Part shown: positions 22,055-33,675 of the stretch, one piece after another
Numbering within the stretch: the stretch's first letter is position 1
Layout: each line of letters opens with the position of its first letter
Origin: Alteromonas sp. V450
GTDB taxonomy: Bacteria; Pseudomonadota; Gammaproteobacteria; Enterobacterales; Alteromonadaceae
Assembly (NCBI RefSeq): GCF_001885075.1
Contig: NZ_MODU01000004.1
Location: 4,030,001-4,094,000, forward strand
DNA length: 64,000 bases
Reading direction: 5' to 3'
Notes under the pieces: generated by a model
Seen by the model: only the letters and a program-made list of their open reading frames with translations
Databases searched by the model: none
What the model was told of the DNA's origin: nothing
Translations under genes and position numbers: made by a program

Positions 22055-22130
22055 CTGTATGTAATACCATATATGGTATGAAGCCGCTAACCATCGTTTA
22101 TACAGCTTAAAATAAAGAATCAAAAAAAAA

Positions 22131-22159
22131 TTACGGTTTTTTCTAGTAACGCCGTGTTT
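22131..22159 (+). promoter_or_regulatory. Predicted ECF-type promoter P1 (sigma operon)
   Basis: TTACGGT at 22131-22137 and CGTG at 22153-22156, separated by 15 nt. The same element with the same spacing occurs at P2, P3 and P4. The CGTG starts 65 nt before the sigma-factor ATG. CGT-type -10 elements are common for ECF factors, so autoregulation is the simplest reading. Confidence 0.65.
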
Positions 22160-22217
22160 GTTTTTTCTGCTCGCATTCATATACAGTGGCTACAACGTTT
22201 ACGGAGTTAACTTAGTT

Positions 22218-22790
22218 ATGTCACAAGCCATTACGCAGGCCATCATTGATTGGCAAACCAACAAAAAAGACGCACAAGAACACTTTTATCTTGTGATTTA
22301 CGATCATCTTCGACAGCTTGCTTCAAAAAACCGTCAACGTGTTGTCGAGCGTTTTGGTAACGATGCGATACAAGAGCATGTTAACTCGACAACGTCATTG
22401 GTGCATGAGCTGTACATCAAACTTAGTCAAAACCAGGAGTTCTACAACAATCGCGCCGAGTTCTTTTTTATGGTGTCGAGAACCATTCACAATATCTTGG
22501 TAGATCAAGCGCGTAAAAATAGTGCTGAGAAGCGCTCAGCAGACATAGTCAGTTTTGAAGATGTAACTACCGACGCACCAATAAAAGAAATAGACAGTGA
22601 GTTTATTGCATTGAGTGAGTCGATAGAGCGTCTTACACAAACCTACCCAAGACAAGCGAGAGTGATACAGTTAAAGTACTTTGGAGGGCTGCTTGCCAAG
22701 GAAATAGCAGATGTCTTAGCGGTAAGCCTGTCGAGCGTAGAAAAAGACATTTCTTTTGCCAGAGCATGGCTGAAGGTTAGGTTGTCATAG
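22218..22790 (+). CDS. ECF-type RNA polymerase sigma factor (TIGR02999/ECF43-like)
   Basis: A 190-residue sigma factor with region 2 (about residues 20-95; HLRQLASKNRQ, then NSTTSLVHELYIKL and RAEFFFMVSRTIHNILVDQARK) and region 4 (about 130-188; YPRQARVIQLKYFGGLLAKEIADVL followed by a SLSSVEKDISFARAWL recognition helix). The NSTTSLVHE segment (residues 56-64) resembles the TIGR02999/ECF43 group, partnered with Ser/Thr kinases; in Vibrio parahaemolyticus a kinase activates such a factor by phosphorylating a threonine in region 2.2. Thr58 and Thr59 are the candidates here (inference). I chose ATG 22218 with GGAG upstream. Its stop overlaps the GTG of the next gene by one base, and P1 precedes it. 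Confidence 0.85.
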   Translation: MSQAITQAIIDWQTNKKDAQEHFYLVIYDHLRQLASKNRQRVVERFGNDAIQEHVNSTTSLVHELYIKLSQNQEFYNNRAEFFFMVSRTIHNILVDQARKNSAEKRSADIVSFEDVTTDAPIKEIDSEFIALSESIERLTQTYPRQARVIQLKYFGGLLAKEIADVLAVSLSSVEKDISFARAWLKVRLS

Positions 22791-23101
22791 TGAGTGCTTC
22801 TTTACTGCAAATAGTGCAAACCGTTTATCACGGCATTTCGTTGAGTGTATTTTGGAAAGACAGCGACAACGCCTATCAGTTTTACATGGATGGTAAGGAA
22901 AGAGGGGCGCGGTTATTCGACGCTTCAGTATCATCTAGTTTTTCATTCGCCGTAAAGGACAGCCAATTCGTACTGAAAGTTACACCTTCTAGTAAAAAGG
23001 GGGTAGATATTATCGGGTTCTATAAAAGTGGTTTACCGTACAAACTTTCTGCTTTTCGCTCGTCTGACAAAATGTTGGTATCAGTTAGCGAGTCGGCATG
23101 A
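22790..23101 (+). CDS. Small protein translationally coupled to the ECF sigma factor
   Basis: A 103-residue protein that I do not recognise. It starts with a GTG overlapping the sigma-factor stop (TAGTG), which points to translational coupling. It has no signal peptide or clear membrane segment. The alternating hydrophobic pattern (SLSVFWKDSDNAYQFYMDG, SFSFAVKDSQFVLKV) suggests a mostly beta fold. Its place between sigma factor and kinase makes it a candidate modulator of either, such as an adaptor or anti-sigma-like factor; this is inference from position only. Confidence 0.65.
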   Translation: MSASLLQIVQTVYHGISLSVFWKDSDNAYQFYMDGKERGARLFDASVSSSFSFAVKDSQFVLKVTPSSKKGVDIIGFYKSGLPYKLSAFRSSDKMLVSVSESA

Positions 23102-23131
23102 ATAGACAAAATACCGCAATGCAAATGGAAA

Positions 23132-23412
23132 ATGTCGACATGTTGGACTAACTGTGCTGAAATGAAGTCAATGACAAGGATGTAGTTGTAAGTAGCGGTG
23201 GTACTTTAGCGTGTCAGGCAGTGACCCATTAACCCAACCTTTACCCCATCATTTTGCCCAGTTGCAGGAGCTCACGGCTGAGCAACAAGCGGCATACCTG
23301 GATGAATTAGACGATTTCACATTAATCGGCGAGCTGGAAGCCTTACTTGCAGTGGGCGATGAAAGTGATTTTATTACGCTCATTGGCGGGCAGGTAGATA
23401 AGCTTACCGGTG
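23132..23412 (+). repeat. 281-bp duplication, copy 1 (kinase upstream region and first 67 codons)
   Basis: By my reading it matches 28163-28443 at all but two positions (GTGCTG/GTTCTG and GAAGTC/GAAATC, both before the start codon). It begins at the palindrome ATGTCGACAT and ends at TTACCGGTG. It includes 79 bp before the kinase GTG. Confidence 0.9.
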
Positions 23413-26099
23413 ATAAAGCCATAGAAGCATTAGCAAATACCCGCGTTGGCCCTTTTGAATTACAAGGCATTATTGGCCGTGGTGGCATGGGTGTGGTGTA
23501 CGATGCCAAACGCATAGACGGTGTGTTTGAACAGCATGTGGCTATTAAGTTTGTTTACCCCAGTATTACTGCTTTAACAGGCCGTGAAACCGTATTCTTT
23601 GAGGCGCGTTGCTTAGGCCAATTGGCCCACCCCAATATTGTGACCATTCACGATGCTGGTGAATTATCACTGGGGGCGTGTTATTTCGTGATGGAGTATT
23701 TGGAGGGCGAAGCGCTAGACGCTTACAGTCGCCGACCAGAAATAACCACGCAAGATTTGGTTTGTCGCATAAACGATTTATGTGATGCCCTTGAAGCCAC
23801 CCACCGTATTCACATCGTACACAGTGACATAAAGCCGAATAATGTGGTGGTTAATACCGAAGGGCGCACCAAGGTGTTGGACTTTGGTATTGCGCAAATT
23901 ATGGAAGGCGAGGTTGCGTCTATCAGTCAATCAACCGTAAATTGCGAAGACTCAGAAGGGAAAGTCAACGAAGATATTTCGAGTGATACTGCTTTTGATA
24001 ATTCGTCAGGAAAAAGCAGTTCACAAAGCATAAAAGGCATGACCATGGCCTTTGCGGCACCAGAGCAAAAGCAAGGCATTGTTACCCCGCTATCGGATAT
24101 TTATTCTATAGGCGCACTTTTACGCTATGTACTTTCCTTAAACGCTCACTACAAAAAACTACCCAAAGCACGCCAACAAGAACTCCAACGCATTGCAGAC
24201 CAATGCATGCAACAAGAGCCTAACAACCGTTATCAGCAAGTCGCAAGCATAAAACATGATTTACAACATTGGCTGGAAGGAAAGCGACTCAGTTTTGAAC
24301 CCAAAATGTCGTTACGCACCGGTAGCAAATGGGTAAAACGAAACCCGTGGTCAAGCGCGTTTGCGCTCATTATTGCTATCACGCTACCCAGCGGTATTTA
24401 CTATCAGCAACAGCTAAGTAGCGAAAAAGCCCAATCTCAAGAAGTTGCCAAACACTTTGAGTCTTTTATTCGCTATACCGACCCTGCTATTGCAGGGCGG
24501 CCAATGAGCGAAGCAATGCAAATGTTGTTAGACACCTACAACAATGTGGCCAATTCTACCCAGCTAACGCTCGCTAACAAGCATCGCATTGTGGTAACTA
24601 TTCTCGATAGCCTAATCGGGCTAGGGGAATACGAGCAGGTATTGGCTTACGAAAAAGATGGCTTTTTTACAACCTTATTAAGCATCGACTCAGAGAACGA
24701 TTTTGCGCTCACTCGTCAGCTGATCACCACCCAAATAAAACAGGGAAGCGATGCCAAAGCTTACGAACGCTATCAACGTGCGCTTGAGCAAAGTTCAGAA
24801 GTATCAGTGCGAGCATCACTATTGCTGGAATTAGCCGTTTCTCCCGTCTTTGAAAAGCTGTTGGGAAATGATGGGCTTACAAAATGGGCAGCACTTAATA
24901 ATCGCATTGTTAACAATGCCCACCTTTTTAACGAAGAGGAATTGCAGGGCAACACCATCAATAAAATTAATAGGCTATATAAAACCTTATTTAGGCAAAT
25001 CGAAGCTACACAAAATAGAAAAGCGTTGAGTGATGAAAGCATTCAGTCTTTATATTCACAAACAGCGGCTATGGTGAACCAGCTGCCGGTTACTCATCCA
25101 GACACTAATATCGTTCTAAAGCGCTTGTCTCATATAAGTTTTTTAATGGGGGCTGAAGAAAGGTACTCTCGTATACTTCGTGAAAACCTTGAAGTGATGG
25201 AACAGGTATATGGTAAATATCATCCTATTACCATTAAAGCGCTGTCGATAATCGGTCAAGTTTTACATAGTTATGAACATTCGCTTGCTGATGCCAACAT
25301 TTACTATCAGTTAGCGTATGAACGCGCCACTCAAAGTGGCTTTCTTTACAACGGACTATTTATCGACAATTTGCATTGGGCTATGTCTTATATGGGGGAG
25401 CATCAAGCACTAAAGGAGTCAATGTTTTCCCTAGATGATACCTTACTTCAAAAGTTAGACTGGAAAGATCAGTATTATCTTAAGTTTGATCGTATCTGGT
25501 ATACGTTAGAGTTTTTTCCAGAGCAGGCCTACAGCGAAGTTATCGACGTTCAAAAGTGGCTTGCAACTGTACCTGAATCGGTTGCCGTAACAGAATTTAA
25601 CGTGCCGTCTGAGAAACTGTTTTTGGCAGTATTGAAATTGTCGTTAGAAGGCAAATATACCGAAAGTATAAACATGTACAACAGTGGGCGTAATGTCATC
25701 GATGGAAGCAGTCCTTGGCCCGTTGATGCTTTAGAAGAGTATTTATATCGCAAGCAAGGTGACTTTGATACAAGTCTCAAAATACTAGATGAATATGTTC
25801 CAAAGCACGATGATTTAGGGATTTTCAACCAAGACGGCTTATTTCAAGATGCTTTTTTATGGCGAGCTCAAAGCTTAGCAGAACTAGGAAAACCAGAAGA
25901 AGCTGCCGCAATATTGCAAGCGTGTTTCGATTTTAGCTACAACCTGCGGGCCGAGCCTGATAATTTCTGGCTACAAGTGGTTGCCACCATGGCCGATTAC
26001 TACAACTTGCCCCTTGATACATACGAATTAACCGTACCGCTGATGGACACTAACTTTTTATTTACCGGTGGTAAGCAGCGCCTAATGCCGCAGCAGTAA
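23211..26099 (+). CDS. Transmembrane Ser/Thr protein kinase with large C-terminal helical-repeat domain
   Basis: A 962-residue eukaryote-like kinase. Residues 1-75 are an acidic N-terminal segment; the kinase domain spans about 82-355: GRGGMG loop (89-94), AIK lysine 113, helix-C Glu131, catalytic HSDIKPNN (Asp206), DFG (224-226) and APE (283-285). The usual HRD reads HSD. The segment between DFG and APE is unusually long (about 56 residues) and Ser/Thr-rich. A single membrane helix (about 381-397) is followed by about 560 residues of predicted helical, TPR-like repeats, presumably periplasmic and sensory. Start is GTG 23211, 109 nt after the coupled small gene. In family logic it would phosphorylate the neighbouring sigma factor. 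A near-identical copy of its 5' end lies at 28163. Confidence 0.88.
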   Translation: MSGSDPLTQPLPHHFAQLQELTAEQQAAYLDELDDFTLIGELEALLAVGDESDFITLIGGQVDKLTGDKAIEALANTRVGPFELQGIIGRGGMGVVYDAKRIDGVFEQHVAIKFVYPSITALTGRETVFFEARCLGQLAHPNIVTIHDAGELSLGACYFVMEYLEGEALDAYSRRPEITTQDLVCRINDLCDALEATHRIHIVHSDIKPNNVVVNTEGRTKVLDFGIAQIMEGEVASISQSTVNCEDSEGKVNEDISSDTAFDNSSGKSSSQSIKGMTMAFAAPEQKQGIVTPLSDIYSIGALLRYVLSLNAHYKKLPKARQQELQRIADQCMQQEPNNRYQQVASIKHDLQHWLEGKRLSFEPKMSLRTGSKWVKRNPWSSAFALIIAITLPSGIYYQQQLSSEKAQSQEVAKHFESFIRYTDPAIAGRPMSEAMQMLLDTYNNVANSTQLTLANKHRIVVTILDSLIGLGEYEQVLAYEKDGFFTTLLSIDSENDFALTRQLITTQIKQGSDAKAYERYQRALEQSSEVSVRASLLLELAVSPVFEKLLGNDGLTKWAALNNRIVNNAHLFNEEELQGNTINKINRLYKTLFRQIEATQNRKALSDESIQSLYSQTAAMVNQLPVTHPDTNIVLKRLSHISFLMGAEERYSRILRENLEVMEQVYGKYHPITIKALSIIGQVLHSYEHSLADANIYYQLAYERATQSGFLYNGLFIDNLHWAMSYMGEHQALKESMFSLDDTLLQKLDWKDQYYLKFDRIWYTLEFFPEQAYSEVIDVQKWLATVPESVAVTEFNVPSEKLFLAVLKLSLEGKYTESINMYNSGRNVIDGSSPWPVDALEEYLYRKQGDFDTSLKILDEYVPKHDDLGIFNQDGLFQDAFLWRAQSLAELGKPEEAAAILQACFDFSYNLRAEPDNFWLQVVATMADYYNLPLDTYELTVPLMDTNFLFTGGKQRLMPQQ

Positions 26100-26121
26100 C
26101 ATCGACTTACTGCTGCAGCAT
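26085..26121. terminator. Hairpin at the 3' end of the kinase gene
   Basis: GCAGCAGTAA (26090-26099) pairs perfectly with TTACTGCTGC (26107-26116) over a 7-nt loop, extended by ATGC/GCAT outside one mismatch. It contains the kinase stop codon and separates two convergent genes. There is no T-run, so efficient intrinsic termination is uncertain. Confidence 0.4.
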
Positions 26122-26140
26122 GGTTATAAGAGCTGTTGCG

Positions 26141-27997
26141 TTAATTTTCTTGCTGTTCTTCCAATGCATTTTGCTGTGCAAGGGCCGCTTGTTGCATGGC
26201 ATCTACAGCGAAAATGCCGGTAGTGTTAGCTCGTGAACCTTCGTTCATTTTGTGCATGTGTGCAATGGCTTCTTCGGTGTCTTTGTCATTCATGCTAGCC
26301 ACATACTGCCTATTGGCTAAGCTGGTTTTAAGCTCATTAACAATGGTATCTAATTCTGCTTGGTTTTTTTGCATAGACATTAAAAAGCGAGGATGTTCCA
26401 AATTCTTTTCTCCCGACGTAGCAAAAATAGAGGTGGTTGCACGCGTACTTACAAACCAAGGCGTAATAGATGAATTGACCACTTTGTTCTCTGTCAGGTT
26501 CGAATCGTTCATGCCGCGGCCAATTGACATCTTTGATTCGAGATAAGTACCTTCGATTTGCGCCCACATTAGAAGGCTAGAGAAATGTAATTCTCCCCAA
26601 TAAAGGTGGCTGGCAGCGCTTAGTATTTTGCTGCCTGCTCGCACGGCAAAAAACGCAAACAACGTAAATACAATACCGTTAAAAGCAGAAACTACCGGCG
26701 CTAGTCGCTCAAAAGAAAGGTTTTCAATCTTGAGCGCAACGAGTGAGTTAATAAAACCAGCTAGCTGGTAGCCTAACCATAGAAATAAGGCGCTGCTTAC
26801 TACCAGGCTTGCTGATGCACCTACTGTGGCAAGCACTTTGGCAAAGCGAGGCAGTTGAGTATCGCTTGCCACCGCTGGTTGGGTTTCAATCATAACATTG
26901 CCGAAAAAGCTGCCTTTGCCGTCAGCTTGCTGGCGCATGTTAGTAACAAACGGCTTATATATGCGGTTAGGAATTTCTTTGTACCGCCTATTCGCTAAAA
27001 CCATGGTCTCCATATTGATGAATAATTCTTTTGGATTTACTTTTTCTTGAAAGTTATCACGGTATTCAGCAACCGCCGATGTTGGCGTGGCCATTTTCAT
27101 TCTCGCAATCAACCCCGGTAACGCTAAGCCGAAAACCAAGACGGTTACAGCGAAAAATATCAGCAAATTAGGCAGTGCATTGAATATGTCAACTTGCGCT
27201 TTAATAAATTCAACTTGTTCGAACAGCTTACTAGGTGCAGCATCTAACGCAAAGCCAGCGCCAATGGGAACTAAAATAGCCATAACCAGCATAGGGGCCA
27301 ATGCCCAACTGCCTTCACTTTGCACCGTAACCGCACTAATACTGTTCTGCTGGGCCGAGGTGCTAAGCCAAATTACTGAAATGTAGATAAGCAAAAGTAG
27401 GGAAAGAATAGGCATAGCGATAAGGCTTGCTTTTTCCCCGGCTAACCCGCTAGATACTACGAACCACGCTACCATAAAAACCGTTATGGCAACCACGATA
27501 TCTATGGCAAGCGAGGCCAGTGTTTGCGCTAAATTTCTGAGGGGGTAGGGTAGAAAAGTCAGTTTTGGAAATAATGAATGTACAAAGCGTGCAACCCAGC
27601 CACGTGGCTCAATGAAGGTAGTATTCTTTCGCCCCATCAGCATAGAGTGCAAACTTTCTTCATTGTAAAGCACGCTGTTTTTTTCAGCCTTAGCGTTTTC
27701 TTTTTCTGAGTCCGCTTTATTAAAGGCAAGAGATGTTGGTACAGAACGACCAACAAAATAACGGAATAATTGAAACATGCCTGAACCAATAACGCGTATA
27801 CCAGCGATTAATAATACGGCACCTAAACACGCCAACGTATAGCCCATAATAGGATCTTGCTTTAGTTGGCTGGCTACAGAAATTAAAGGCACTACGCCCA
27901 TAATGGCAATGATAATGCCGGCCATAATGCGCATAACACCTTCAAAACGAAACGGATTATTTATACCAAGTGTTTGTGAACCATAATCGTATGCCAT
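26141..27997 (-). CDS. Large multi-pass membrane protein of the ECF block, function unknown
   Basis: A 618-residue protein that I do not recognise. Hydrophobic stretches occur at about 22-42, 48-72, 160-185, 190-212, 230-252, 278-300, 392-415 and 440-465, so about eight membrane helices. The N-terminus (MAYDYGSQTLGINNPFRFEG) lacks a signal peptide. Soluble stretches lie at about 80-150 and 305-385, and the C-terminal 150 residues are hydrophilic and glutamine-rich. AGGGAAG precedes the ATG. It is convergent with the kinase gene and driven by the predicted promoter P2, so it is a likely target of the sigma factor and may act in the envelope. Confidence 0.75.
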   Translation of the reverse strand: MAYDYGSQTLGINNPFRFEGVMRIMAGIIIAIMGVVPLISVASQLKQDPIMGYTLACLGAVLLIAGIRVIGSGMFQLFRYFVGRSVPTSLAFNKADSEKENAKAEKNSVLYNEESLHSMLMGRKNTTFIEPRGWVARFVHSLFPKLTFLPYPLRNLAQTLASLAIDIVVAITVFMVAWFVVSSGLAGEKASLIAMPILSLLLLIYISVIWLSTSAQQNSISAVTVQSEGSWALAPMLVMAILVPIGAGFALDAAPSKLFEQVEFIKAQVDIFNALPNLLIFFAVTVLVFGLALPGLIARMKMATPTSAVAEYRDNFQEKVNPKELFINMETMVLANRRYKEIPNRIYKPFVTNMRQQADGKGSFFGNVMIETQPAVASDTQLPRFAKVLATVGASASLVVSSALFLWLGYQLAGFINSLVALKIENLSFERLAPVVSAFNGIVFTLFAFFAVRAGSKILSAASHLYWGELHFSSLLMWAQIEGTYLESKMSIGRGMNDSNLTENKVVNSSITPWFVSTRATTSIFATSGEKNLEHPRFLMSMQKNQAELDTIVNELKTSLANRQYVASMNDKDTEEAIAHMHKMNEGSRANTTGIFAVDAMQQAALAQQNALEEQQEN

Positions 27998-28115
27998 TTT
28001 ACTTCCCTTTTATCTTCAAATACGCTGCGACAACCTAAAGCGTTGTTTACCAAGTTTAACGCTGCTAAAGCGCTTTTCTTTTATGCCCGAAGATCGCGTT
28101 TGCGAAGACAAGTTA

Positions 28116-28146
28116 CCAGACACGTAATTGAAAAAATAAACCGTAA
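28116..28146 (-). promoter_or_regulatory. Predicted ECF-type promoter P2 (618-aa membrane protein gene)
   Basis: On the minus strand TTACGGT (28146-28140) and CGTGTCTGG (28124-28116) with 15 nt between TTACGGT and CGTG, identical to P1, P3 and P4. The leader is 127 nt here. The longer word ACGTGTCTGG is shared exactly with P3. Confidence 0.65.
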
Positions 28147-28162
28147 AACAAATATCAAACTG

Positions 28163-28443
28163 ATGTCGACATGTTGGACTAACTGTTCTGAAATGAAATC
28201 AATGACAAGGATGTAGTTGTAAGTAGCGGTGGTACTTTAGCGTGTCAGGCAGTGACCCATTAACCCAACCTTTACCCCATCATTTTGCCCAGTTGCAGGA
28301 GCTCACGGCTGAGCAACAAGCGGCATACCTGGATGAATTAGACGATTTCACATTAATCGGCGAGCTGGAAGCCTTACTTGCAGTGGGCGATGAAAGTGAT
28401 TTTATTACGCTCATTGGCGGGCAGGTAGATAAGCTTACCGGTG
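28163..28443 (+). repeat. 281-bp duplication, copy 2
   Basis: Near-identical to 23132-23412. It begins at the same ATGTCGACAT palindrome and ends in the TTACCGGTG microhomology, where the sequence switches to a diverged copy of the kinase gene's last codons. Confidence 0.9.
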
Positions 28444-28472
28444 GCAAACAGCGCCTAATGCCTGATAATTAA
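28242..28472 (+). CDS. Internally deleted kinase copy encoding a 76-residue fragment
   Basis: An intact short ORF: residues 1-67 equal the kinase N-terminus at 23211, and the tail GKQRLMPDN resembles the kinase C-terminus GKQRLMPQQ. The joint is at TTACCGGTG, which occurs in the full gene at both 23404-23412 and 26062-26070, so the simplest history is duplication of the whole gene followed by loss of about 2.65 kb between the two 9-bp repeats. It keeps the GTG start and 79 bp of upstream DNA and ends before a strong hairpin. It lacks the entire kinase, membrane and repeat domains. It may be a dead remnant, or a competitor for whatever binds the kinase N-terminus. Confidence 0.6.
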   Translation: MSGSDPLTQPLPHHFAQLQELTAEQQAAYLDELDDFTLIGELEALLAVGDESDFITLIGGQVDKLTGGKQRLMPDN

Positions 28473-28495
28473 ACTATCGTTATCAGGGTAGGCGC
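28451..28495. terminator. Long hairpin after the truncated kinase copy
   Basis: Nested arms GCGCCTA (28451-28457)/TAGGCGC (28489-28495) and CCTGATAA (28461-28468)/TTATCAGG (28480-28487) enclose the stop codon. It lies between the truncated copy and the convergent 292-aa gene. No T-run; possible transcription barrier. Confidence 0.45.
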
Positions 28496-28507
28496 TCTGC
28501 CGTTGAG

Positions 28508-29386
28508 TTAAAACAAGCTGTCATCCATGCCCATTTGTGATTTCGCTGAATCTAGCGCGTCAGCGCCTATCTTGGCCACTCTGTTGTATTCACCCCTTAA
28601 CCAGGTATTAAACGCCGCTTTCATTTTGCCGCCTTTAACATGGCGCGCTATGCTCATACCTATACTTACCGAAAAGCCTATTCCCAGCTGGGTAAGTGCG
28701 GTAACAACTTCGGCGTCGCTATTAAAATCGCCCATAAACATAAAGGCCGTAGCCAACACCCATGGTAGGTGCCACCAACCAATAGAATTTGAATGTACAA
28801 CATTAAAAAGTGTATCAGAGGCTATACCTTGAAAAGCCAATTCATGCCGAGACTCTGTATCGCTGTGATGCACAATAACCGAGGGCTGCGTGGTGTCATT
28901 CCAGCTTTGCCCAAAAACGTTGCCTGATGCAATAACATCGGTGGTTTCTGATTCTGCACGTTTGTGGTAAAGCCAACCCAAACTCACCAATTGACCCGAA
29001 GAAATTTTATCAAGATCTAAATCGACCAAGCGAAATTTAGCGATGTTACCACTTGCGTCTTTTACGGTAAGGTAATCGTAGTAAGTAACGATAGTTTTAA
29101 CATCGACATCTTTTACGTAGGAGTGGCCTTTACGTGTTACTCCTTTTCTTTTAGTAACAACATTGCGGCTGCTTTTATCTTTTTCGTGTTCTTGCACCAC
29201 ATAGTGTTGCCACTGAACCTGCACACTTTCTATCTTCCCTTTGCCTTTACTATTGTAAAACTTGGTATAAACGTCGCTTTGTTGTGTTTTTTGTAAGGTC
29301 TCAAAAATACTTTTCTTAATTACCTTGGCCAGGGCAATTTGTTTCATTTCGCCTTCAACCAAGCTTTGTACGTCAATATGTTCCAT
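28508..29386 (-). CDS. Protein with two C-terminal membrane helices, member of the ECF block, function unknown
   Basis: A 292-residue protein that I do not recognise. Residues 1-60 look helical; about 60-185 are beta-rich with a basic patch (VVTKRKGVTRKGHSY), and GQLVSLGWLYHKR could be part of an OB- or SH3-like fold. Two hydrophobic segments (about 206-221 and 226-246, in WHLPWVLATAFMF and LGIGFSVSIGMSIA) suggest a C-terminal membrane hairpin, with a cytoplasmic bulk. I chose ATG 29386, preceded by AGGAGAG at a good distance; the frame runs 15 codons further. P3 lies with its CGTG 65 nt before this start, supporting both start choice and regulation by the sigma factor. Confidence 0.72.
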   Translation of the reverse strand: MEHIDVQSLVEGEMKQIALAKVIKKSIFETLQKTQQSDVYTKFYNSKGKGKIESVQVQWQHYVVQEHEKDKSSRNVVTKRKGVTRKGHSYVKDVDVKTIVTYYDYLTVKDASGNIAKFRLVDLDLDKISSGQLVSLGWLYHKRAESETTDVIASGNVFGQSWNDTTQPSVIVHHSDTESRHELAFQGIASDTLFNVVHSNSIGWWHLPWVLATAFMFMGDFNSDAEVVTALTQLGIGFSVSIGMSIARHVKGGKMKAAFNTWLRGEYNRVAKIGADALDSAKSQMGMDDSLF

Positions 29387-29442
29387 TTTTCTCTCCTGCG
29401 TGTGTCTATCACTACACAAAATACAGAGCAAGAAAAAAGCAG

Positions 29443-29473
29443 CCAGACACGTATTTGTTTTTAAATACCGTAA
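29443..29473 (-). promoter_or_regulatory. Predicted ECF-type promoter P3 (292-aa protein gene)
   Basis: Minus-strand TTACGGT (29473-29467), 15-nt gap, CGTGTCTGG (29451-29443). CGTG begins 65 nt before the ATG, the same leader length as P1 and P4. It is divergent from P4 only about 30 bp away. Confidence 0.65.
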
Positions 29474-29501
29474 TTTATAAACAAATAAATTTTTATTACT
29501 T

Positions 29502-29530
29502 TTACGGTTTTTTCATACCTTTACGTGGTT
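29502..29530 (+). promoter_or_regulatory. Predicted ECF-type promoter P4 (lipoprotein-protease unit)
   Basis: TTACGGT (29502-29508), 15-nt gap, CGTG (29524-29527). CGTG begins 65 nt before the ATG at 29589. Confidence 0.65.
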
Positions 29531-29588
29531 TCTGTCTCCCCTGTTTTAAGTTTAAGCTTAACATCAAGCCAGTTTAAGGATGGACAAT

Positions 29589-31490
29589 ATGAAAAAGCTC
29601 ATTGCAACACTTAGCGCAGTTTTACTGATAACCGCTTGTGGTGGAGGAGGTGGTGGTAATTCCAACCCAGTACCACCTGTGAATTCGGGGGGCGGAAATG
29701 GCGGTGGCGGCAGTACTACGAATAATGCGCCAGTTCTGTCATCATTCGCAAACATTGAAATAGATGAAAACACTTCAACAACCATTGCCATTGCAGCTTC
29801 CGACGAAGATGGCGACGCGCTTAATTACAGTGTTACTGCGGCAAATCCAATTACTGCAAGTGCTTCCGGAAATAACCTTAATATAGCAGCAGGTGAGGTA
29901 GAGTCTGATATTAATGTGACTGTGACAGTAACCGCAGATGATGGAAAAGGCGGTACCGATAGCCAGCAATTCACAGTAATAGTGAAGAACGTCATTATTA
30001 ATACGCCGCCAAGCGTTGTTTTATCCTCCGAGCAGCTTGAATTAGTGCCACAACAACAAGAAATTATTACCGCAACATTGTTTGATGCCGAAAGCGATGT
30101 CACGGACTTATTTGCAGGAGTCTCAGTCAGTGACACCAGTGTAATAACTGCAGGTATTATGGGTGATGGCAGTGTGGAAGTGACTGCGTTAAGCGAAGGG
30201 GCTGCTACGATCACCTATTTGGTAAGAGACGAGGGCGGGCTTTCTTCGACGGCCGAAATAAATGTAACGGTTTTACCCGTTCCGGATGAGCCCAATGAAG
30301 CCCCTGACTTTACCATTGCCAATGAACTCGAAGGGAATGTACTTCAGACTTATCATGACAAAACTACGGTATTCAATGTCTTGATTACCGACCCCGACTC
30401 AACTGCACATTACATAACATTATCAAATTTCGACAGCATTATTGGTACGATTGACTATTTAAATTACTACGAGATAAATGATGTCAATAAAACGATTACG
30501 TTTGACTTTGCTCCGATGGCGCGAAACATAGATGAAATGCGTTTTGTAATGGAACTTGGTGTAGTAGATGACAGTGAAAACAAAACAACCAAGGTTTATG
30601 AATTGATTGTTGAAAAAACTGACAATGCCGTACCTATTTTCACGCTTAATGAAAAGGAAGGGGCATTTATTGTTGTTGAGCAAAATGGAACAACAGAAGT
30701 CACATATACGATTGAAGATGACGACGTGTCGAAAGTTGAAGTGACAGGTATTCAATATTGGTATGGCGACGAAGAAAAGTTCGATGTTCAATTAAACGCT
30801 GATACGAATTCATTTACGGTTACTACCGAGAATGTAGAAGTTCAAGATACCTATGGTTTTGTTATCCAATATGTTGACGTTAGCCTTGTTGGTAACGTGA
30901 ATGTTGAGCTAATGGTGGGCGCAACCTTTGGTGAAGATGAGCAAGATATGCTCGAGCTTCAACATCGTATGATTAAAGCGCGGGAGTCGATTAAAGAGTA
31001 TCTACATATTGGTGTGTTTTACGCGCAAGTATTAGAAAATATTGGCGCTATTACTCAGCAACAAGCGATAGACTTTATCGAACGACTAGACGTAGATGAT
31101 TCAAGCAATTTAGGCTACAGCAGATTTAATCTCTACATCAATAATATTGATTACAACATTAGTATTGGCGAGTTTAAAGATGAAGGCTTTAAGGGTTCCT
31201 ACATAACAGTGCTCAACAATTTATTTGAAGAAGCGATGTCGATGGGGCAAGAACGTTTTGCCATTTTAAATGAAATGGCTGACATGTCTTTAGGCGTCCT
31301 TCCTGAAATTACCTTCGAGCAAAGCGTGAATGAATACGATGAAGTTAACAATTATTACAGTCGGTTTGTAGGTAATGAACGTTACGGCGAATACATAAAT
31401 GACGAATGGGTATTTAATGCAGAGTTTGCATTTATGCACGCAGTTCAGGAGAGGATGATTGAAAATGCACAGCGCTACATCGATGAATAA
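29589..31490 (+). CDS. Cadherin/Ig-like repeat lipoprotein of the ECF block
   Basis: A 633-residue lipoprotein: MKKLIATLSAVLLITACGG has a clear lipobox (ITAC), followed by a Gly/Asn-rich linker. The N-terminal half has two or three Ig/cadherin-like beta domains, the first with APVLSSFANIEIDENTST and ASDEDGDALNYS, typical of calcium-binding cadherin-like repeats, the second with an EVTALSEGAATITYLV core. The C-terminal 190 residues (from about EDEQDMLELQHRMIK) are helical and unrelated to the repeats. ATG 29589 follows AAGGA by 8 nt; an ATG at 29580 lies inside that site. The protease gene starts 68 nt downstream with no promoter element seen between, so the pair is likely one transcript from P4. 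Confidence 0.75.
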   Translation: MKKLIATLSAVLLITACGGGGGGNSNPVPPVNSGGGNGGGGSTTNNAPVLSSFANIEIDENTSTTIAIAASDEDGDALNYSVTAANPITASASGNNLNIAAGEVESDINVTVTVTADDGKGGTDSQQFTVIVKNVIINTPPSVVLSSEQLELVPQQQEIITATLFDAESDVTDLFAGVSVSDTSVITAGIMGDGSVEVTALSEGAATITYLVRDEGGLSSTAEINVTVLPVPDEPNEAPDFTIANELEGNVLQTYHDKTTVFNVLITDPDSTAHYITLSNFDSIIGTIDYLNYYEINDVNKTITFDFAPMARNIDEMRFVMELGVVDDSENKTTKVYELIVEKTDNAVPIFTLNEKEGAFIVVEQNGTTEVTYTIEDDDVSKVEVTGIQYWYGDEEKFDVQLNADTNSFTVTTENVEVQDTYGFVIQYVDVSLVGNVNVELMVGATFGEDEQDMLELQHRMIKARESIKEYLHIGVFYAQVLENIGAITQQQAIDFIERLDVDDSSNLGYSRFNLYINNIDYNISIGEFKDEGFKGSYITVLNNLFEEAMSMGQERFAILNEMADMSLGVLPEITFEQSVNEYDEVNNYYSRFVGNERYGEYINDEWVFNAEFAFMHAVQERMIENAQRYIDE

Positions 31491-31557
31491 TGGGTCGCAA
31501 ATTTTGAAGTTTGTTACTTTTTCGTTCTGTTCAGCATAGTTAAAAAAGGAATTAATC

Positions 31558-33351
31558 GTGAAACGTTTCATAATTGCGTTAGTAATAGCGATGACAGCGT
31601 CGTCAGCAGATGCCATAAGCGAAACATTGTTAGAAGCACCGCTGAAAAATGCCCCTACCCCCACATCTCGTCAAACGACAATCGATGGATATTTTATTGT
31701 TAAATTTAAAGATAAAGACGTACACCAGTCACTGAGAAAAGAAACTGGTGAGCGACAAACCCTTGGAAATAAAACGACGTCGTTTGAACATGCTATCTTC
31801 GACACGTTTGAAGCTGAGCATGTTAGAACGCTTGCTTTGGGCACAGACCTTATTAAAGTCAAGTTATCAGATAAAAGCAGCGATGCTATTGCCATTGATT
31901 TGGTCAACACTGGGCGTTTCGAGTTTGTTGAAAAAATGCGCGTTTATTACCCTTTAGATTTCGATAGCTCTGAATACAATGACCCTGAATATCACAACCA
32001 GTCGTATTTTGGGGATTATAGCGAAGACTTAAAAAGAGGCTCGGGCTTCGCCAAAATGCGGGCATCAACAGTCAATAACCTTGGCAGGAAAGTACGAATT
32101 GCGGTAATTGATTCGGGGTCGTATCGTCATGAAGATGTTGATTTTGTAGGTGGCTACGACTTTGTCACCTATGAAGGTTTTGATGAAAAAGGCGACATTA
32201 ATACGGTAGAACGAGATTCAGACCCCACTGATGAATATTTCAATGAGACAACAGGTGAAACGTGCAATGTCGGGCATGGTCTTGCTGTCTCGAGTATGAT
32301 AGCCGCTAAAGCCAATAACGGTGTTGGTATGGTTGGCGCTGTCGATGCCAATATGGTCGAAATTATCCCGGTGCGCGCACTAGGTTGTACTGGTGGTTCT
32401 AATACCGACATTATGGAGGCCGTGTTGTGGGCGGCTGGCGAGAGCATAGAGGGTGTGCCAGATATAGATCAGCCGGTCGATATTGTTAATATGAGCCTTG
32501 GCGGGGGAGCTAATGGAGGTTGTCCTGAATGGGAGCAAGCAGTGTTCGATCGTTTACGCGAACTCGGTGTGGTAGTTGTTGTTGCAGCGGGCAACGAAGA
32601 TATGAATGTCGTCAACTCGATACCAGGGGCTTGTACCCGAATTGTTACTGTCGGGTCAACCGACGAACGCGGAGATAAGGCAAGCTTTTCTAATTACGGC
32701 GAGAAAGTGGATGTATCTACATTTGGTACCAATGTAGTTGGCGCTTTTCTTTCGACAACTGAAGATAATCTATACTCTATCGGTAATGGAACCAGCTATT
32801 CAGCACCACTAGTTGCAGCAACCGCCGCAAGCTTGCTGTTGAAGTACCCCTTCTTAAACCCTGAACAAATTGAATCTATTATAAAGTCTAGCACTGTCGA
32901 CAATAGTGTAATTGAAGGCGCCCAAACGGTGTGTGGTAGAAGGGGATGCGGAACGGGGATCCTACAAGCCAACACTGCGATCAAGTCAATAAGTGATGCG
33001 ATGGAAGTATCTAGCTATAGCGTTAGCCACAGATATGAAGGATATGATTCTGCAGCGGACGTTAAGTGGTTAGACGCAATGTCTAGCTACGTTAATGCGT
33101 GCGAACTTGTCAGGTATCAGTGGGGTAACTTAGGTACAGAAGTCCAAGGTATTACATACAATTTGTTTTTAACAGAAACCAACGGGGAGCGCGTAGAGCT
33201 TGAAACTGTTAGCATTCCGCAAAAAGTTATGGCGCTGCCCCAAAATGCTACTCTTTCTGTGCAAGCGTGTGTTAACGGAGATTGTGGTAATTTAGTTGAG
33301 ATGGAAGTGAGTAATCTGAACTATCCCGCAGCATGTAGCAATAACTCGTAA
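31558..33351 (+). CDS. Exported subtilisin-like serine protease (S8 family)
   Basis: A 597-residue secreted protease. Signal peptide MKRFIIALVIAMTASSADA, then a prodomain of about 120 residues. The catalytic triad is visible: Asp in IAVIDSGSYRHED, His in CNVGHGLAVSSMIAA and Ser in GNGTSYSAPLVAATAAS; the oxyanion Asn is in VVVAAGNEDMN. Six or more cysteines (CNVGHG, RALGCTGG, GGCPEW, GACTRIV, VCGRRGCG) suggest disulfides. The C-terminal 130 residues form a separate beta domain. Start is GTG 31558, after AAGGA. It follows the lipoprotein and is probably co-expressed from P4, so the protease may process the lipoprotein or an envelope signal. Confidence 0.88.
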   Translation: MKRFIIALVIAMTASSADAISETLLEAPLKNAPTPTSRQTTIDGYFIVKFKDKDVHQSLRKETGERQTLGNKTTSFEHAIFDTFEAEHVRTLALGTDLIKVKLSDKSSDAIAIDLVNTGRFEFVEKMRVYYPLDFDSSEYNDPEYHNQSYFGDYSEDLKRGSGFAKMRASTVNNLGRKVRIAVIDSGSYRHEDVDFVGGYDFVTYEGFDEKGDINTVERDSDPTDEYFNETTGETCNVGHGLAVSSMIAAKANNGVGMVGAVDANMVEIIPVRALGCTGGSNTDIMEAVLWAAGESIEGVPDIDQPVDIVNMSLGGGANGGCPEWEQAVFDRLRELGVVVVVAAGNEDMNVVNSIPGACTRIVTVGSTDERGDKASFSNYGEKVDVSTFGTNVVGAFLSTTEDNLYSIGNGTSYSAPLVAATAASLLLKYPFLNPEQIESIIKSSTVDNSVIEGAQTVCGRRGCGTGILQANTAIKSISDAMEVSSYSVSHRYEGYDSAADVKWLDAMSSYVNACELVRYQWGNLGTEVQGITYNLFLTETNGERVELETVSIPQKVMALPQNATLSVQACVNGDCGNLVEMEVSNLNYPAACSNNS

Positions 33352-33359
33352 TAACGATT

Positions 33360-33390
33360 GCAAGAGGGGGAGTGTATGCCTCTTGCCTTT
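33360..33390 (+). terminator. Intrinsic terminator after the protease gene (first hairpin)
   Basis: GCAAGAGG and CCTCTTGC (33360-33367 and 33379-33386) form a hairpin with a CTTTG tail. Confidence 0.6.
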
Positions 33391-33405
33391 GTACGCTTAC
33401 AAAAG

Positions 33406-33434
33406 AACGTGCCTTATTAGGTACGTTTTTTTGT
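33406..33434 (+). terminator. Intrinsic terminator after the protease gene (second hairpin)
   Basis: AACGTGCCT and AGGTACGTT pair around TATT with one G-T wobble and are followed by TTTTTTT, including the end of the arm. Two terminators in tandem close the ECF block. Confidence 0.7.
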
Positions 33435-33675
33435 TCGTTCTTTTAGTTAGCAAGTGAATTCACAACTTCTACATTTTATCAGTCCGCATGCATCATTGCC
33501 CACGTAGAGAGGCTTAACATGTTCGTAATCGCGGCGTGTTACCGCAGGTAAGGTAATTCTATCTAACGGTTACAGAACAAAGAGTGGAGACATTTAAAAC
33601 GCGCCCCTCGGGAGGTGCTGGCAAATGTTTATTCAGACCCGTATAAATCTCCGCCGTCATCGATTTATGACAGTT
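33435..33675. other. Intergenic region before the DUF3450-TonB operon
   Basis: About 240 bp without a credible ORF or structured RNA that I can recognise. It ends at the inverted repeat and Pho-box-like site that precede the operon. Confidence 0.35.

Follow-up and report, generated by a model that had tools for sequence, protein, structure and literature searches.

The DNA considered here is a stretch of 64,000 nucleotides (nt) from Alteromonas sp. V450 (assembly GCF_001885075.1, contig NZ_MODU01000004.1, positions 4,030,001 to 4,094,000 of the forward strand). It is called the window, and coordinates refer to it unless another locus is named. It contains four copies, P1 to P4, of a two-part promoter-like element, TTACGGT-N15-CGTG. 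All four, together with the genes of an extracytoplasmic function (ECF) sigma factor and a Hanks-type kinase, lie inside an insert that is referred to as the island. The principal features are as follows, with protein lengths in amino acids (aa).

22067 to 33656 (approximate), no strand: insert of about 11.6 kb that holds the whole predicted regulon and is flanked by the genes of a TonB-dependent receptor and a DUF3450 protein.
22131 to 22156, plus strand: P1, TTACGGT-N15-CGTG, preceding the sigma operon; 65 nt from CGTG to ATG.
22218 to 22790, plus strand: sigma factor of ECF43-like type, 190 aa, with STTS at residues 57-60; its matches to PF07638 and TIGR02999 exceed the cut-offs.
23211 to 26099, plus strand: Hanks-type kinase, 962 aa, with a tetratricopeptide repeat (TPR)-like C-terminal region and the motifs GRGGMG, VAIKF, HSDIKPNN and DFG.
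28121 to 28146, minus strand: P2, TTACGGT-N15-CGTG, preceding a 618-aa gene; 127 nt from CGTG to ATG.
29448 to 29473, minus strand: P3, TTACGGT-N15-CGTG, preceding a 292-aa gene; 65 nt from CGTG to ATG.
29502 to 29527, plus strand: P4, TTACGGT-N15-CGTG, preceding a lipoprotein-protease pair and divergent from P3; 65 nt from CGTG to ATG.

The sigma factor is a two-domain ECF protein of the TIGR02999/PF07638 kind and scores above both curated cut-offs. In its region 2.2 the acidic DAED motif is replaced by the uncharged STTS, and the second threonine of this motif, Thr59, is present in all nine aligned sigma factors. The kinase gene is separated from the sigma gene by one small gene. The family matches, the STTS motif and the Hanks kinase neighbour together assign the sigma factor as ECF43-like. 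Pfam/NCBIfam recognise no anti-sigma gene beside it, although the small gene in between encodes a 103-aa protein to which no function is assigned. Among solved structures the best match of the kinase is 9EED, PknS of Xanthomonas citri (the deposit is named PknS in PMC13147305; here and below, statements on published work refer to excerpts of the articles cited). Its TPR-like repeats score just above the cut-off for TPR_14 and just below that for TPR_12. No kinase segment passes the hydrophobicity cut-off, so that its presumed membrane location is taken over from PknS.

The initial annotation placed four copies of the element at the positions given above, and an exact scan of both strands of the window finds the same four and no others. 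A longer word reported as common to P2 and P3 is present in both as ACGTGTCTGG; the letters shared around the -10 part number ten. The distance of 65 nt from CGTG to ATG in P1, P3 and P4 agrees on recomputation; in P4 it is counted to the ATG at 29589, and the ATG at 29580, three codons earlier, gives 56. With up to two mismatches the window holds 27 matches, compared with 14.4 ± 3.6 in shuffled sequences, and none of 100 shuffles reaches 27.

The complete 4.39-Mb genome contains six exact copies of the pattern, and a control pattern read backwards is also present six times. This equality agrees with an explanation by chance, in which an 11-letter pattern was selected after the fact. However, four of the six copies are clustered within 7.4 kb, all of them before genes, while the other two lie inside open reading frames (ORFs), which we take to be LptG and cytochrome b (named without a family search). 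As a bare word the pattern is no commoner in the genome than its control, and counting it genome-wide is uninformative; the argument has to be carried by position, orientation and held-out loci. As the held-out loci in other genera, described below, contradict chance, the probability of this explanation is practically nil.

A scan for ECF43-like sigma factors gave 61 loci, mostly from Vibrio, Aliivibrio and Photobacterium. Without Alteromonas sp. KUL42 and Paraglaciecola hydrolytica they form a held-out set of 59 (L036-L094), which includes some near-duplicate species and second loci of one genome. The 61 loci contain 23 exact matches at N15 (three in KUL42) and 0 or 1 at each of the spacings N11-14 and N16-19, and the reversed pattern gives 2 exact matches against these 23. 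Counts with one mismatch, 53 against 38 for the reversed pattern, discriminate weakly. A first matrix, from which one exact match (L051 at 15002) was omitted, and a model, R1, built in part from P1-P4, are both partly in-sample for Vibrionaceae. The held-out tests are therefore a matrix from seven Alteromonas sites only, applied to the other loci, and a Vibrionaceae-only model, R2, applied to Alteromonas. The Alteromonas-only matrix finds sites of at least 16 bits in 46 of the 59 held-out loci, while 50 column-permuted matrices do so in 1.7 loci on average and in 5 at most. There are 54 held-out sites. A same-strand ORF starts within 250 nt of 51 of these, 48 of those ORFs have a lipoprotein-like signal, and no site lies inside an ORF of at least 150 aa. 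The distance from site to start is 57-240 nt, being within 74-145 nt in 46 of the 51 cases. The combined consensus is approximately TTTACGGTTTTTT-N9-TTCGTGTCTTG.

The element also occurs together with the sigma lineage. Among 118 genomes of a Vibrio-like genus (that of genome G055), an R1 site with an expectation value (E) of at most 1e-4 is found in 27, the sigma factor (E<=1e-40) in 35 and both in 26 (Fisher p 2e-17; G377, which has the site and no sigma factor at this threshold, is counted as a miss). In 295 genomes of the order, R2 gives matches with E<=0.005 in eight. Six of these, all with E<=1e-4, carry a close sigma factor (E<1e-60), and the two weak ones (0.003 and 0.004) are without it. 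In the six genomes, eight of nine sites are on the contig of the sigma gene, within about 5.1 kb. The ninth (G249:C100:191584, locus L151) is strong, lies off that contig and precedes a 110-aa lipoprotein-like ORF; it is possible that this is a distant member of the regulon. In the genome of strain V450 itself, R1 places P1-P4 alone at E<1e-3, with P2 as the best match and the next match at 0.097 (scoring covered 150 of the 3181 first-look candidates), and in the KUL42 genome only its three elements reach E<1e-3.

Two other genomes carry the same island. In KUL42 (loci L034 and L021 belong to the same genome) the sigma factor is 84% identical, the order of sigma factor, 102-aa protein, kinase, 292-aa protein, lipoprotein and protease is kept, and an additional, split second kinase copy is present. 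Three exact elements precede the genes of the sigma factor (L021:6615), the 292-aa protein (L021:14580) and the lipoprotein (L021:14612). The island of P. hydrolytica has the same gene set, with a sigma factor of 61% identity, and the counterparts of the elements are somewhat altered:

L035:9912: counterpart of P1, TTGCGGG-N15-CGTA.
L035:14788: counterpart of P3, TTATGGT-N15-CGTA.
L035:14820: counterpart of P4, TTACGGT-N15-CGTA.

The relaxed pattern TT[AG][CT]GG[GT]-N15-CGT[AG], which was chosen after inspection of the P. hydrolytica upstream regions, has three matches in the 20.6 kb of that locus, exactly at the sigma, 292-aa and lipoprotein positions. It has five in the 64-kb window (P1-P4 and one other) and none in six control loci of 16 kb. 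Hence the element is found at all three homologous positions in KUL42 and at all three in P. hydrolytica. The distances from CGT to the named ATG for the sigma, 292-aa and lipoprotein genes are 65/65/65 in the window, 66/66/65 in KUL42 and 67/68/64 in P. hydrolytica. The fixed leader length proposed by the initial annotation is thus retained in part: it holds at 64-68 nt for all nine homologous sites in three species, but not for P2 (127 nt) or for the other loci with their wide range. The near-constant leader is a trait of this type of island and not of the sigma class, and P2 stands outside it.

As in ECF-type promoters, the element is directional and two-part, has a fixed gap and stands upstream of genes in the sigma factor's own locus. 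We consider it very probable that P1-P4 are promoters to which the ECF43-like sigma factor encoded in the island directs RNA polymerase. What the DNA shows directly is the presence and conservation of the elements, their tie to the sigma lineage, and their orientation and position. The local autoregulated ECF regulon predicted by the initial annotation finds support in the conservation of the island, in the recurrence of the element beside related sigma genes and at gene starts, and in the position of the two remaining exact copies of the genome, neither of which is upstream of a gene. Autoregulation in particular, for which the evidence is an element ahead of the sigma operon, is suggested for the three islands only.

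Several observations weigh against this reading. In the genome of V450 the Vibrionaceae-only model R2 ranks P2 first and P4 second, but weakly (E 0.006 and 0.008); P1 is a partial match (E 0.27) outranked by two other places, and P3 is not recovered at E<=1. With the stricter filters of the 295-genome survey, R2 has no match at E<=0.005 in this genome. This weak and partial ranking implies that the Alteromonas and Vibrionaceae promoters are related and not identical. No 16-bit site is found in 13 of the 59 held-out loci, and in nine of the 35 Vibrio genomes with the sigma factor R1 gives no site at E<=1e-4. A gene also diverges behind 21 of the 54 held-out sites, so that neighbours alone leave the direction unfixed there. 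Outside the three islands the element mostly precedes a lipoprotein gene and not the sigma operon. The loci are mutually related, and the counts accordingly overstate their independence. Finally, the nearly identical -35 word of the HasI promoters, discussed below, means that a -35 of the TTTACGG type is not unique to this lineage or to ECF43.

The same element could also be the operator of a separate DNA-binding regulator, with the sigma genes as mere neighbours, since conservation alone does not tell whether a two-part element is a promoter or an operator. The element is, however, asymmetric, keeps its 15-nt gap, stands at a gene start in nearly all held-out sites and occurs with this sigma lineage. 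No other DNA-binding protein is recognised among the island proteins by Pfam/NCBIfam. Sites resembling those of sigma-70 number 16 in the island, fewer than the 25.6 of shuffled sequences, and all of them lie clear of P1-P4. In addition, another ECF sigma factor, HasI, requires a similar word as its -35 site (PMC9249621). An operator is thus quite improbable, and recognition by the ECF43-like sigma factor is preferred. The genome contains two further ECF43-like sigma genes, at C4:1598369 with a kinase behind it and at C4:2807697 with no kinase in the ORF list (L028 6370-9758, L029 7698-8246). The first matrix finds nothing of at least 10 bits in the 16 kb around each, and these two paralogues therefore probably read other promoters.

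The mechanism that we infer, with its binding by the sigma factor, autoregulation, phosphorylation, signal and physiological role, may be described as follows. TTACGGT would be the -35 part, and CGTG with the letters following it the -10 part. The sigma factor lacks the acidic patch that normally holds ECF sigma factors on the core polymerase. The TPR-containing Hanks kinase would sense a signal, probably at the envelope, and phosphorylate Thr59 in STTS, after which the active sigma factor could bind core polymerase. The resulting holoenzyme would transcribe the operon of sigma factor, 103-aa protein and kinase from P1, giving positive feedback, as well as the lipoprotein and subtilisin genes from P4, the 292-aa gene from P3 and the 618-aa gene from P2. 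An output consisting of a lipoprotein with an Ig domain, a subtilisin and two proteins to which no function is assigned suggests a response of the cell surface or envelope.

Two reviews and one research article describe ECF43 sigma factors as being without the DAED motif and as becoming active when the adjacent kinase phosphorylates the threonine at this place (PMC8999054, PMC8103513, PMC13147305). Since the window sigma factor is ECF43-like, it is probably activated in the same way by the adjacent Hanks kinase, and Thr59, the predicted phospho-acceptor, is most likely its target. The element could nevertheless be the promoter of this sigma factor while control is exerted by other means, for example through the 103-aa protein or through phosphosites in the linker. 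Further phosphosites besides this threonine are described in PMC13147305, where EcfK of X. citri is reported to be functional as T51A and T106 in the linker to be important; moreover, the 103-aa protein lies between sigma factor and kinase in three islands. On the other hand, the second threonine of STTS is invariant in the alignment and the kinase adjoins. The 103-aa protein has no match in Pfam or NCBIfam. The structure model of the 103-aa protein is fair (mean predicted local distance difference test score, pLDDT, 82.5), and its best match in the PDB, the FAIM N-terminal domain, is weak (E 0.02), for which reason no function is claimed. Control by a route other than Thr59 is rather unlikely, and phosphorylation of Thr59 remains the favoured mode.

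The other genes of the island are listed here.

22790 to 23101, plus strand: 103-aa protein, predicted all-beta, between sigma factor and kinase; among the compared loci found only in the three islands.
26141 to 27997, minus strand: 618-aa membrane protein with 8 hydrophobic segments and no Pfam/NCBIfam match.
28163 to 28472, plus strand: second-kinase remnant, a 286-nt repeat of the 5' end of the first kinase (99% identical) and a 3'-end piece; ORF 28242-28472.
28508 to 29386, minus strand: 292-aa protein with no family assigned; its only counterparts among the compared loci are those of KUL42 (93%) and P. hydrolytica (50%).
29589 to 31490, plus strand: 633-aa lipoprotein containing a Big_9 (bacterial Ig) domain.
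31558 to 33351, plus strand: S8 peptidase of the subtilisin type, 597 aa; its gene follows that of the lipoprotein in tandem.

The presence of a 286-nt duplication in this region, together with the ten letters shared by P2 and P3, raises the question whether P1-P4 arose from one another by local duplication and have no regulatory meaning. However, the duplication ends short of the elements. The ungapped identity of the flanks is 16-35% in 11 of 12 comparisons, while the remaining one, with 55%, pairs the upstream flanks of P3 and P4, both rich in A+T. The retention of the element in other genera, amid other neighbour genes, already contradicts this explanation, and we regard it as extremely unlikely.

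The kinase remnant is a 76-codon ORF in which the 5' and 3' pieces are joined in frame at a shared short word, TTACCGGTG. The second kinase copy thus appears shortened as if by deletion between direct repeats. At the matching place in KUL42 (L021 10661-13550) the second kinase copy consists of two overlapping ORFs of 486 and 483 aa. With the KUL42 copy split and the window copy reduced, decay of the second kinase gene seems to be under way in both Alteromonas islands.

The 618-aa gene and P2 sit between the first kinase and the deleted second copy. Neither the KUL42 locus nor that of P. hydrolytica contains the gene. Its family is widespread, being found in 37 of the 295 genomes of the order (V450 included), and no element lies within the scanned flank of about 1.5 kb of 14 other copies. 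On these grounds native membership of the regulon was rejected for this gene, and it is apparently an outside gene that was captured by the regulon. The 292-aa protein, in contrast to this family, is found in only one of the 295 genomes, that of V450 itself (KUL42 is outside that draw). Its structure model is unusable, with a mean pLDDT of 34.5.

The site of the insert is generally empty in relatives. Of 19 other genomes drawn from the genus, 17 have a DUF3450 match of more than 80% identity, with a TonB-dependent receptor gene directly before it in 15. The receptors at these 15 sites are 73-98% identical to that of the window in eight and 43-46% in seven; one of the two DUF3450 genomes without an adjacent receptor is cut by a contig end. 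The window flanks align to the empty site L195, where 14 nt separate them, and this puts the insert borders near 22067 and 33656. A close sigma factor is found in only one of 35 relatives of the same genus, KUL42, and there the island has other neighbours. For these reasons we read the island as a self-contained, horizontally gained regulon.

Some further observations concern the element and the sigma gene in other genera. In Vibrio nereis (L051 13106-13112) two divergent, overlapping elements lie between a lipoprotein gene and the gene of a 291-aa, probably exported protein, in a layout resembling that of P3 and P4. In Psychrobium, Colwellia and an Alteromonadales genome (L053 107 and 4337; L065 7719; L077 19114) TTACGGT is replaced by TTACGTG with the gap unchanged, and in two of these four cases the variant precedes a 104-aa lipoprotein-like ORF. 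At locus L089 a frame break splits the sigma gene between two reading frames.

In a wider sense, the ECF43 loci of marine gammaproteobacteria could be self-contained, horizontally moving cassettes. Each would combine a kinase, a phosphorylation-dependent sigma factor, a private promoter of approximately TTTACGGTTTTT-N9-TTTCGTGTCTTG and a conserved surface-lipoprotein output, and the Alteromonas form would drive itself and, through P2, a captured foreign membrane-protein gene. This generalisation is tentative, and our confidence in it falls a little short of even. With one consensus shared by tens of Alteromonas, Vibrio, Aliivibrio and Photobacterium loci, such regulons could be predicted from sequence. 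The consensus would also indicate surface lipoproteins as a common output, and P1-P4 would be ready reporters for what the kinases sense.

The class of mechanism is already known, while the regulon and the island are, to our knowledge, undescribed. Control of a sigma factor by direct kinase phosphorylation, of the ECF43 type, has few worked examples (PMC8999054). The Sig-70_X6/ECF sub-family entries (TIGR02999, PF07638), above whose cut-offs the sigma factor scores, are broad and silent on promoter or regulon. A consensus tied to ECF43 was not found by word searches of open-licence text, only one of them aimed at its letters, a scope that leaves out figures and the original EcfP and ECF classification papers.

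The promoters of hasS and hasR, which depend on HasI, hold TTTACGGGTTT in the -35 region, and mutagenesis upstream of hasS showed that the site is required (PMC9249621). This word is one letter from the window-type consensus TTTACGGTTTT, a likeness that supports TTTACGG-TTT as a possible -35 word of ECF sigma factors. It covers the -35 word only, and HasI differs in belonging to an anti-sigma-controlled haem-uptake system for which the available text names no kinase (PMC9249621).

The EcfK-PknS pair of X. citri (ECF43) has the same kinase architecture, an N-terminal kinase with C-terminal TPRs. However, the motif of EcfK is QATE (PMC13147305) while that of the window sigma factor is STTS, and EcfK governs a type VI secretion system (PMC8999054), whereas none is recognised in the window island by Pfam/NCBIfam. 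The EcfP-PknT pair of Vibrio parahaemolyticus (ECF43), for which activation by phosphorylation is the published model (PMC8999054, PMC8103513), resembles the window pair in its uncharged threonine motif (STTA in EcfP, STTS in the window) and in the adjoining Hanks kinase. What sets the window island apart is a gene content of its own and an element that precedes the sigma operon.

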